Assembly (NCBI GenBank): GCA_937928595.1
Contig: CALGJV010000017.1
Location: 1 to 64,000, forward strand
Source of the DNA: an uncultured Phycisphaerae bacterium
GTDB taxonomy: Bacteria > Planctomycetota > Phycisphaerae > UBA1845 > Fen-1342
DNA length: 64,000 nt
Direction of reading: 5' to 3'
Positions 55,051 through 58,182 of this stretch are shown here, piece by piece; position 1 is the first letter of the stretch; each line of letters starts with the position of its first letter. A program made the position numbers and the translations under genes. The notes beneath the pieces were generated by a model. The model ran no database searches. It saw only the letters and a program-made list of their open reading frames with translations, and had not been told where the DNA came from.

Positions 55051-55362
55051 ATGGGAAAGCAGGCCGTCATTGGGGCGTTGGCGCTCTCACTCATGGCGTG
55101 TCGTGCGCCGCAGCCCGCGATCATCGCGGCCGCGGACGACGCACCGACGGTGAACCTCGCCCTGGGTCCGACGGCCGAGCACGCATGGCTTGCGACGGAG
55201 CTGTCGTGGCGTTCGGACTGGCCGGCCGTGCGGCTCGGCTATCGGTTCGACGATGTCACGTACTACTACAGCGTGCTGTACAACGAGAACTCGATGTACG
55301 ACCGCAACGGCAGCGTGTCGGATACGCAGGAGTCCGTGCGGACGGGCGTCTGGGTGCGGTAG
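55051..55362 (+). CDS. Small lipoprotein of unknown function
   Basis: A 103-residue protein. The N-terminus MGKQAVIGALALSLMACRAP is a lipoprotein signal with lipobox LMAC, so Cys17 would be lipidated. The mature part has TVNLALGPTAEHAWLATELS, then the Tyr/Asp/Asn-rich VTYYYSVLYNENSMYDRNGS and an acidic-to-basic end GVWVR. No family is recognised. It precedes the three collagen-like lipoproteins by 180 bp on the same strand and may belong with them. ATG at 55051 (a TTG lies directly before it). Confidence 0.6.
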   Translation: MGKQAVIGALALSLMACRAPQPAIIAAADDAPTVNLALGPTAEHAWLATELSWRSDWPAVRLGYRFDDVTYYYSVLYNENSMYDRNGSVSDTQESVRTGVWVR

Positions 55363-55542: not shown

Positions 55543-56184
55543 ATGAATCGGGCTTTGTTGGGTGCAGCAGTACTGGCGGCGGTCCTGGCCGGCCTGACGG
55601 TGGGATGCGGAACCGTGAGCGGCGCGGCGATGGACGCCTACTGGATCAACGCCCTTTACAACCAGCAGAACGGCGGCAGCGGGCAGGTTAATCCTGGTCC
55701 CGCGGGCCCGGCCGGTCCGCAGGGCGAGAAGGGCGACAAGGGTGACCAGGGCGACCCGGGGCCGGCGGGTCCGGCCGGACCGGCGGGTCCGCAGGGTCCG
55801 GCGGGTGCCGATGGCGTCTCGACGGCGGTCGTCCGTGGCCGGGTCGACGCGGCGGGTGCGACCACGGGTGGGTCGCCGGAGGTGAGCTCGTCGCTGCTCA
55901 CGACGGGCAAGTATCGTATCGTCGTGACGCTTCCGGAGAGCCTCGATACGAGCCCGGCGCTTTCGCACTTCAACTTCCCGATCCTCGTGACGCCCGAGGC
56001 CCTGCCGCTGGGTGGCGAGCTGGCCGAGATCCCGCTGGTCGCGACGGTGAACCCGCTTCAGTACAACGACACGAACAGTAACGGCTTGCGGGACCAGCTC
56101 GTGATGGAGGTGTACATGCGGAAGCTCCAGCCGAGCATCGAGTTCGTGAACGCCCCGTTCAGCCTGGCGGTGCTGGAGCCGTAG
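55543..56184 (+). CDS. Collagen-like lipoprotein 1
   Basis: A 213-residue protein. Lipoprotein signal MNRALLGAAVLAAVLAGLTV ends VGC (Cys22). After about 25 residues come 13 uninterrupted Gly-X-Y triplets (residues about 50-90: GPAGPAGPQGEKGDKGDQGD and onward), able to form a trimeric collagen helix. The C-terminal 120 residues are a globular domain shared with the next two genes: TGKYRIVVTLPESLDTSPAL, FPILVTPEALPLGGELAEIP, YNDTNSNGLRDQLVMEVYMR and the ending FSLAVLEP. DTNSNGLRD looks like a calcium loop. ATG at 55543 follows GAGGAGAG. Confidence 0.8.
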   Translation: MNRALLGAAVLAAVLAGLTVGCGTVSGAAMDAYWINALYNQQNGGSGQVNPGPAGPAGPQGEKGDKGDQGDPGPAGPAGPAGPQGPAGADGVSTAVVRGRVDAAGATTGGSPEVSSSLLTTGKYRIVVTLPESLDTSPALSHFNFPILVTPEALPLGGELAEIPLVATVNPLQYNDTNSNGLRDQLVMEVYMRKLQPSIEFVNAPFSLAVLEP

Positions 56185-56220
56185 TCAGGCTCTGATCCCG
56201 CCGGAAGTCCGGATTTTTCG

Positions 56221-56268
56221 ACCGGGCGGCGCCACTCGTATGGAGAGTGGAGCCGCCCGGTGTTATTT
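56221..56268 (+). terminator. Compound hairpin terminator after collagen-like gene 1
   Basis: ACCGGGCGGC (56221-56230) pairs with GCCGCCCGGT (56252-56261), and inside it CCACTC pairs with GAGTGG, making a long two-part stem. GTTATTT follows. A smaller CCGGA-AG-TCCGG hairpin with ATTTTT sits just before it (56201-56217). Confidence 0.75.
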
Positions 56269-56348
56269 GGCCCGGGGGATCGCGCTGTTATCGCGACGTC
56301 GGCCCCGCGGGCCCACTCTTTCGTTCAGGAGGGCAGAGCAAGTAATTT

Positions 56349-56381
56349 TATTGGACACCGCTCCCGGTTTGGGCATATAAC
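56349..56381 (+). promoter_or_regulatory. Promoter of collagen-like gene 2
   Basis: TATTGGAC (TTGGAC at 56351-56356) is followed by CATATA/TATAAC (56374-56381), spacing 17-19 bp. It lies about 115 bp before the ATG at 56497. The same TATTGGAC plus a C/G block ending CCCGGT occurs before gene 3. No gene is seen in the 312-bp gap. Confidence 0.5.
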
Positions 56382-56496
56382 TTGCGCCTTGGGTTTCCGA
56401 CCCGGGCGGGGTCGGACGGAGTCGAGGGTCGCTCGGGAACGCTACTCGGACGTTCGGCGTGGCGGAGTCCCAGGGCACATCAGGAGACGCAAGGTC

Positions 56497-57195
56497 ATGA
56501 AGACGCGGGCGCTTACCATGGTCGCCGGGTTGTTGTTGGCAGGGTTATGGGGCTGTGGGAATCAGTCGGACCTCCAGAGCCAGATCGACGAGCTGCAGGC
56601 TCAGTTGACCGATCTGGCCGGCCGGCCGGCCGTCGGCCCGGCGGGTCCGCAGGGCCCCGCAGGTCCGCAGGGGCCTGCGGGAGCGGACGGGGCGAACGGC
56701 GCGAACGGGACGAACGGCACCAACGGAACGAACGGGGCCGATGGCGCCCCCGGGCCGCAAGGGCCCGCCGGGCCGGAGGGTCCGCAGGGACCTGCGGGTC
56801 AAGACGGTCAGGACGGCCAGGATCTGACGGGTGTGGTCGCCAGGGCGCAGGTCGGCCCCGACGGGCAGAACGTCAGCGGGACCCGCGGCCTCGTGTCGGA
56901 GCTCATCTCGACGGGTGTCTACCGGATCGTGGTCGATATTCCCGAGACGCTGGACACGGGCGACCCCGCTGTCGATCACTGGGCCTTCCCGGTTGTCGTA
57001 ACCCCGTGGGAACTCCAGATCAGCGATGAGATTCGGGCGATCATGGTGGCGTCAGTGGAGCCGATTTCGTACGGCGACAGCGACGCTAACGGAAAGCGCG
57101 ACAAGCTGAGCGTCCGTGTCTACATCCGCAAGATCTGGCCCGGAGAACCAACGCTCTGGAACGACGGCTTCGGTGTGCTCGTGCTCGAGCCGTGA
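56497..57195 (+). CDS. Collagen-like lipoprotein 2
   Basis: A 232-residue protein. Lipoprotein signal with lipobox LWGC, Cys20. Residues about 24-42 (LQSQIDELQAQLTDLAG) form a short coiled coil that could nucleate trimers. It is followed by 21 Gly-X-Y triplets, including the unusual run GANGANGTNGTNGTNGADG. The C-terminal domain matches its neighbours: TGVYRIVVDIPETLDTGDPA, FPVVVTPWELQISDEIRAIM, YGDSDANGKRDKLSVRVYIR, NDGFGVLVLEP. The ATG at 56497 follows AGGAG at a somewhat long distance. Probably surface-anchored. Confidence 0.82.
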   Translation: MKTRALTMVAGLLLAGLWGCGNQSDLQSQIDELQAQLTDLAGRPAVGPAGPQGPAGPQGPAGADGANGANGTNGTNGTNGADGAPGPQGPAGPEGPQGPAGQDGQDGQDLTGVVARAQVGPDGQNVSGTRGLVSELISTGVYRIVVDIPETLDTGDPAVDHWAFPVVVTPWELQISDEIRAIMVASVEPISYGDSDANGKRDKLSVRVYIRKIWPGEPTLWNDGFGVLVLEP

Positions 57196-57233
57196 GGCGG
57201 TGAAACCTTCGAACTGAAGAAGTGACGAACGCT

Positions 57234-57276
57234 GACGGCTGGGCGCTGCAAAGGCGGACCCGGCCGTCTTCGTTTT
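57234..57276 (+). terminator. Terminator after collagen-like gene 2
   Basis: GACGGCTGGG (57234-57243) pairs with CCCGGCCGTC (57259-57268), one G-U pair included, with TTCGTTTTC after it. It lies about 40 nt past the stop and closes the gene 2 transcript. Confidence 0.7.
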
Positions 57277-57462
57277 CAGCAGGAGACGCCGCGCCGAGAT
57301 GGGGAGCGGCGCGGCCACAAGCGGCGGGGTCCGCGGACATTACTCCTAAACCGGTGCGCCGAAATATGCCGATGGAACGGGAGCGATTCCGGATTGATCG
57401 GGAGGGCTCATTGTGTCTCGATAATGCGCACTTGGAGGTTTCCGTGCGCAGGCACGGGATTG

Positions 57463-57492
57463 TATTGGACTCGCCCCGGTGGATTCTGTAGA
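57463..57492 (+). promoter_or_regulatory. Promoter of collagen-like gene 3
   Basis: TATTGGAC (TTGGAC at 57465-57470) and TGTAGA (57487-57492) are 16 bp apart, about 100 bp before the ATG at 57592. The upstream block matches that of gene 2. No gene is seen in the 396-bp gap. Confidence 0.45.
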
Positions 57493-57591
57493 TTGTTCGT
57501 TATGGGTCCCGAGAAACGGTGGAAGCGGCTCGCGACGCCAACTGGTTAGCCAGCGGAGTCGGGAGTGCTTCCGTAATCAAGGAGTGGGGAC

Positions 57592-58182
57592 ATGAAGCGG
57601 GTATTGTTCGTGTTTGCGTCTCTCGTTGGGACGCTGCTGTGGGGGTGCGGGTTCGCGTCGCTGGATTCGGGCAGCGTTTTGAACACCCAGGTCCAGGGTG
57701 AGACGCAGTCCTCGCCGACGGGCGACTCGGCTGCGGAATCGCCGGCCATCATCGTCGGCCCAGCCGGACCCGCGGGGCCACAGGGCGAGAAGGGCGACCC
57801 GAGTCGCGACCTGACCGGTCTGATCGCGCGGGCGCAGATCGACGCGCAGGGCGCCAACATCAGCGGGGCGGCGAACGTGGCCAGCGCGCGCCTGGCGCGC
57901 GGCATCTACAGCGTGGTGGTGACGGTGTCGGAGTCGCTGGACACGGGCGCCGCCACGCGCGACTACTACGACTTTCCCGTGCAGGTGACACCCTGGGAAC
58001 TTCCAATCAGCGACGAGGTCCGCGCGACGATGCTGGGATCGTTCGAGCCCTTCGCGTACGAAGACACGGACGGCAACGGTCTGCGCGATCGGCTGACGGT
58101 CAAGGTCTACATTCGCCTCATCCTGACGGGGCTGCCGCAGCTCTGGGACGGCGGCTTCAGCGTACTCGTGCTCGAACCCTGA
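57592..58182 (+). CDS. Collagen-like lipoprotein 3 (short repeat)
   Basis: A 196-residue protein. Lipoprotein signal MKRVLFVFASLVGTLLWGCG with lipobox LWGC, Cys19. A polar linker precedes only five Gly-X-Y triplets (GPAGPAGPQGEKGDP), the rest apparently lost. The C-terminal domain is again shared: RDLTGLIARAQIDAQGANIS, SVVVTVSESLDTGAA, FPVQVTPWELPISDEVRATM, YEDTDGNGLRDRLTVKVYIR, DGGFSVLVLEP. It is closest to gene 2. It converges on the minus-strand membrane protein. Confidence 0.8.
   Translation: MKRVLFVFASLVGTLLWGCGFASLDSGSVLNTQVQGETQSSPTGDSAAESPAIIVGPAGPAGPQGEKGDPSRDLTGLIARAQIDAQGANISGAANVASARLARGIYSVVVTVSESLDTGAATRDYYDFPVQVTPWELPISDEVRATMLGSFEPFAYEDTDGNGLRDRLTVKVYIRLILTGLPQLWDGGFSVLVLEP

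Follow-up and report, generated by a model that had tools for sequence, protein, structure and literature searches.

Three consecutive genes in the window, a stretch of 64,000 nucleotides from an uncultured Phycisphaerae bacterium, encode an uncatalogued family of proteins built from a collagen-like stalk and a C-terminal head; the family is triplicated locally, and the head has a recognisable type of fold. The genes, here called copies A, B, and C, lie in a row on the plus strand and carry 13, 21, and 5 Gly-X-Y triplets, respectively (Table 1). By sequence comparison they appear to be local paralogues of a gene that is normally single-copy and present throughout one Phycisphaerae family. The reading that we favour, and consider reasonably probable, is that they are lipid-anchored, trimeric surface proteins of "lollipop" shape, in which the head mediates trimerisation and has a surface glycan or an envelope partner as its probable ligand. 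We advance only tentatively the wider idea that the locus represents an undescribed two-gene surface system of this family, in which a small lipoprotein accompanies a collagen-stalked, lipid-anchored receptor resembling a phage fibre tip, occupying a single chromosomal position in different genera and multiplied here into heads at different heights. No description of collagen-like surface proteins of Phycisphaerae was found in the literature searched.

The coordinates of the three genes are exact, and the triplet counts first given were correct on the translations. The reading frames contain no stops or frameshifts, GC3 is 82-86%, and dN between copies is 0.37-0.55 relative to a dS of about 1, which is near saturation; the high GC3 and the excess of dS over dN support A, B, and C as real coding genes. 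Their signal-peptide-like N-termini end in VGC (A), WGC (B), and WGC (C). Judged by eye on the translations, A has a conventional lipobox (LTVG-C), and in the LWG-C of B and C position −2 is occupied by Trp, a residue unusual for the lipobox pattern there; lipidation is likely from these motifs, with a weaker prediction for B and C. The family N-terminal motif C-x6-A-M-D-x-x-W is kept in A and absent from C, and segments similar to the heptad-like DLQSQIDELQAQLTDLAG of B are present in relatives. Promoter-like elements precede B and C; the pattern was picked after both sites had been seen, and its low chance expectation is therefore flattering. That both share TATTGGAC suggests that separate promoters were copied along with the gene. 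Scans for sigma-70 promoters and terminators gave counts not above chance.

Table 1. Features of the collagen-like gene cluster and the adjacent small gene (window coordinates)
Feature	Position	Strand	Basis or remark
Small putative lipoprotein gene, ~103 aa, LMAC lipobox	55051..55362	+	Homologues upstream in relatives
Copy A, putative collagen-like lipoprotein	55543..56184	+	213 aa, ORF translation
Copy A, Gly-X-Y tract, 13 triplets	55696..55812	+	Translation; Pfam Collagen E 1.3e-7
Copy A, C-terminal domain (head)	55813..56181	+	Homology; AlphaFold pLDDT 89.3
Copy A, Dx[DN]xNGxxD loop DTNSNGLRD	56068..56094	+	Between two predicted strands
Promoter-like element TATTGGAC-N19-TATAAC, upstream of B	56349..56381	+	Pattern chosen post hoc
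Copy B, putative collagen-like lipoprotein	56497..57195	+	232 aa, ORF translation
Copy B, short heptad-like segment DLQSQIDELQAQLTDLAG, between lipobox Cys and collagen tract	56566..56622	+	Sequence
Copy B, Gly-X-Y tract, 21 triplets	56635..56823	+	Translation; Pfam Collagen E 7e-9
Copy B, C-terminal domain (head)	56818..57192	+	AlphaFold pLDDT 92.1, pTM 0.85; fold matches
Copy B, calcium-type loop DSDANGKRD	57076..57102	+	Sequence, AlphaFold model
Promoter-like element TATTGGAC-N18-TAGATT, upstream of C	57463..57494	+	Pattern chosen post hoc
Copy C, putative lipoprotein, very short collagen tract	57592..58182	+	196 aa, ORF translation
Copy C, Gly-X-Y tract GPAGPAGPQGEKGDP, 5 triplets, start as in A's	57757..57801	+	Translation
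Copy C, C-terminal domain (head)	57805..58179	+	54% identical to B
Copy C, calcium-type loop DTDGNGLRD	58063..58089	+	Sequence, same place as A and B

The likeness among the three C-terminal domains (CTDs) is far above chance: identity over the domain is 54% between B and C, 44% between A and B, and 39% between A and C, and a search of the whole genome with the CTD of B matched only B, C, and A (E values of 1e-81, 7e-42, and 2e-24). The original prediction of a shared domain was borne out, although its length is 122-125 residues and not about 115; the proposed TPWEL block and DxDxNGxRDxLxVxVYIR motif are exact in B and C but read TPEAL and DTNSNGLRDQLVMEVYMR in A, and the terminal VLEP ends all three proteins alike. 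As predicted, the domain is unrecognised by sequence, with no match in Pfam, NCBIfam, or PDB sequences. Its best PDB profile match, a phage tail protein, was not significant (E 0.17), PHROGs gave chance-level matches only, searches of phage (by tblastn), plasmid, and viral-contig collections found no CTD, and there was no sequence-level match to any known lectin or adhesin head.

Profile searches of whole genomes, a check of the kind originally suggested, found the CTD in 23 of the 27 genomes of the same Phycisphaerae family, a count that takes in one doubtful genome, G019 (E 0.009). Each of these genomes has one copy, except the source genome of A-C with three and G002 with two. Beyond the family, CTD matches were confined to two further genomes of the class sample, both of the same order, and to two weak matches in long proteins of the phylum sample. 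Scanning a genome collection with the three-copy alignment of A, B, and C gave no match, and a narrower alignment gave four MAG loci titled Phycisphaerae or Planctomycetota bacterium. In the relatives that were read the CTD sits C-terminal to Gly-X-Y tracts, the exception being L032, the second copy of G002 (= L044:7992-8327), which has zero triplets and is a head without a stalk. The long G019 protein, which has a tail-fibre-like C-terminal domain and resembles the tail fibre phrog_3484 (E 4e-4), had no phage match by tblastn; its profile match to the CTD was weak, and it was not used as evidence of homology.

AlphaFold models of the CTD were confident (pTM 0.85 for B and 0.83 for A; pLDDT in Table 1), and both are all-β sandwiches with nearly identical strand order. 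A shared fold, a point on which the original prediction was open to refutation, therefore holds for the A and B models, and C is expected to fold like B because the two are 54% identical. For both models the CTD of the phiAB6 tailspike (PDB 5jsd/5js4) ranked first, with Z 8.5 over 85 residues at rmsd 2.8 for B and Z 7.5 over 103 residues at rmsd 5.0 for A. The next-ranked matches included white-spot virus VP37 and the R1 pyocin foot, AP22 gp53, and Helix agglutinin, the last three having Z 5.5-5.8 with both models. PDB Foldseek E-values were weak (0.015 for B and 0.002 for A), and matches in a viral structure library were phage tail-fibre-like proteins (best E 7e-6). The CTD of phiAB6 is a β-sandwich of three- and four-stranded sheets, three copies of which form a dome (PMC5314372); the jelly-roll of the pyocin foot, AP22, and agglutinin is a lectin-type fold with variable distal loops (PMC6363177). 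The suggestion that the domain might be new thus did not survive at the level of fold, the models matching trimeric tailspike and fibre tip domains. On these models the CTD appears to have a phiAB6 CTD-like fold; the Z-scores are moderate, and fold similarity is not proof of homology or sugar binding. At the sequence level, neither tblastn nor the PDB profile search (E 0.17) detected homology between the CTD and phage tail proteins.

A calcium-like loop had been put forward as a hallmark of the domain. The pattern D-x-[DN]-x-N-[GD]-x-x-D was found only in A, B, C, and L004, a homologue in G002; other relatives have a shorter turn in its place. In the models of A and B the loop joins two predicted strands, and in C and L004 its location is the same. 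DSDANG, DTDGNG, and DTNSNG fit the calcium motif Dx[DN]xDG except that position five is Asn, as it occasionally is in that motif (PMC3123361). The loop is, on sequence grounds, a lineage-specific candidate calcium loop and not a property of the CTD family.

Both A (31.7 bits) and B (35.7 bits) exceeded the Pfam Collagen (PF01391) cut-off of 27.2 bits; copy C had no match to this family and would qualify as a bacterial collagen-like protein only through its homology to A and B. Collagen geometry allows 0.86 nm per triplet, which predicts stalks of about 11 nm (A), 18 nm (B), and 4 nm (C), and the five-triplet tract of C may be too short for a stalk. In a phylogenetic tree the three copies group as a single clade (support 89/83) in which B and C are closest (96/92), and they occupy the site at which relatives have a single gene. 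The original account of local duplication followed by variation in tract length agrees with this tree and with the differing counts, whereas the repeat expansion that it also invoked is doubtful: tracts of relatives total 7 to 41 triplets with a median total of 27, all three tracts here are below that median, and C looks truncated. Shortening therefore explains more than expansion does. The GPAGPAGPQGEKGDP of C matches the start of the GPAGPAGPQGEKGDKGDQGDP of A, which fits an internal loss of triplets. TRF detected 18-nt DNA repeats inside the tract of B, and short repeats of this kind could slip.

The locus proved to be more than the tandem family first described, namely a module that is conserved and includes a partner gene. 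Of the 16 family loci examined, 15, the A-C locus among them, have a gene for a small putative lipoprotein immediately 5′ of the collagen-like gene; in the exception, G011, the two genes are on different contigs. The small protein has no Pfam or NCBIfam family and has conserved motifs NLALGP...RSDWP...GYRxDDVT...RTGVWVR (the family form ends in RTGVxxR). The gene order is guaA, Gfo/Idh oxidoreductase, small putative lipoprotein, and collagen-like gene(s), converging on GT39-like, UbiA-like, UbiX-like, and TPR-type genes; it recurs, whole or in part, across genera, the neighbours being named by sequence recognition and not by family scan. Adjacency of the small lipoprotein and the collagen-like gene suggests a joint function, and because it is conserved we regard the small lipoprotein as the most likely functional partner. 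That a head and a partner which both lack Pfam and NCBIfam entries share one syntenic site in most family genomes suggests a core role in the envelope or in attachment. Across the class the small-gene family is more widespread, with members in 25 of 198 genomes, and eight small-gene stretches away from the collagen locus, comprising six from other families or orders, G008, and the small-gene contig of G011, contained neither collagen tract nor CTD. G008, a family member, has the small gene (G008:C12:4828-5115, L079) among different flanking genes, and no collagen-head gene was detected in its assembly.

We propose that A, B, and C are each exported and probably anchored in lipid through the signal peptide and Cys. 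The C-terminal β-sandwich head would trimerise, as its resemblance to trimeric tailspike and fibre tip domains suggests, and would probably nucleate the collagen triple helix beneath and set its register, a role known from other collagens and proposed for Legionella Lcl (PMC11162425). The helix would form a thin rigid stalk, about 11 nm in A or 18 nm in B and a stub at most in C, keeping the head at a distance from the outer membrane. Variable loops of the head may bind a glycan or another envelope or surface ligand, the weakest step of the proposal. Duplication followed by change of the tract, mostly shortening, would then show heads at different heights, and the small lipoprotein encoded just upstream may be the partner; both the binding of a ligand or glycan through the head and this partnership are speculative.

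Several known proteins share parts of this design. Lcl is a lollipop with a stable trimeric CTD (PMC11162425), and resembles the design proposed for A, B, and C in its exported collagen-like stalk, trimeric C-terminal head, helical N-terminal region, and variable repeat number. In contrast, Lcl is a peripheral, T2SS-secreted protein anchored by an amphipathic helix, the CTDs were unrelated by sequence in these searches, and NCBIfam adhesin_Lcl scored 27 bits with A and 42 with B, mainly via the collagen tract, against a cut-off of 500. By analogy, A, B, and C would work like lollipop adhesins such as Lcl, yet outside the Lcl family. The phiAB6 CTD likewise is a β-sandwich at the end of a fibre and packs as a trimer, but it is 14-18% identical to the A and B heads with no significant sequence match, and is joined to a phage β-helix depolymerase instead of to collagen and a lipid anchor. 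The R1 pyocin fibre foot, AP22 gp53, and Helix agglutinins (discoidin/H-type-lectin-like jelly-rolls) have the same general β-sandwich; their similarity is only moderate, and sugar-binding residues were not identifiable in the A and B heads. Bacillus anthracis BclA also combines a collagen stalk with a C-terminal β-sandwich head, in its case C1q/TNF-like and trimeric; its anchoring differs, however, and its Z of 4.3-4.5 was not above background (BclA and TNF together gave Z 4.2-4.5), with no Pfam C1q match in A, B, or C. In the head, a fold like that of phage fibre tips is apparently combined with a bacterial collagen stalk, and it could supply a useful new trimerisation module.

The resemblance to phage fibre tips raises the question of whether the cluster belongs to a prophage or tailocin, its genes being tail-fibre genes with collagen repeats, as collagen-like proteins of pathogenic E. 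coli, which also combine a collagen tract with phage-type domains, are located in prophages (PMC3368898). Those are prophage genes, whereas A, B, and C lie at a conserved chromosomal locus whose guaA, Gfo/Idh oxidoreductase, GT39-like, UbiA-like, and UbiX-like flanks keep their order across many genera, and this synteny largely rules out a prophage origin. The matchless phage, plasmid, and viral collections and an N-terminal signal and lipobox in place of a baseplate-binding domain point the same way, and we consider such an origin very improbable. Drift is another explanation, in which A is nearest the ancestral protein, B and/or C are redundant duplicates, and C is losing its tract and decaying. 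The five triplets of C, its missing N-terminal family motif, and the second G002 copy, L032, with no triplets would agree with decay; the intact reading frames, a dN below dS (again near saturation), the retained terminal and core residues, and similar promoter-like sites before B and C argue against it, and we judge drift to be unlikely.

Where bacterial collagens lack hydroxyproline, a trimerisation domain commonly keeps the chains together, and the head could be such a clamp only, the proteins acting as envelope spacers or tethers, for example with the small lipoprotein, that have no external ligand; divergence of the head sequence would then reflect a requirement for the fold alone. The frequency of these domains among hydroxyproline-free collagens favours this explanation, as does the family alignment, in which near-invariance is limited to a small number of core residues (GxY, F, and terminal P) and no conserved polar surface patch is evident; the single copy and very constant genomic setting would also fit a housekeeping envelope role. 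Triplication with differing tracts and the lineage-specific calcium-type loop suggest instead that the exposed part has diversified, and sugar binding is frequent among similar folds (PMC6363177). A head that serves solely as a clamp seems to us somewhat doubtful, and we prefer lollipop proteins whose trimeric head probably also binds a surface or envelope partner.

Three further observations concern collagen-like genes. Another family of the order has an independent tandem pair of 7-triplet collagen-head genes (L035, G043:C2:39522-40417), which lacks the small partner gene and the conserved flanks. The source genome of A-C contains a separate 607-residue frame with several collagen tracts (G000:C13:40921-41304; L071, L072, L074) and no match to the CTD of A, B, and C. 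In the relatives L009, L010, L013, L022, L025, L064, L065, and L066 the collagen tract is broken by Cys-bracketed modules of the form CWDLNGNGxxDxxEDxNxDGxxxxxDC; these resemble paired calcium loops and are possibly disulphide-pinned kinks in the stalk.
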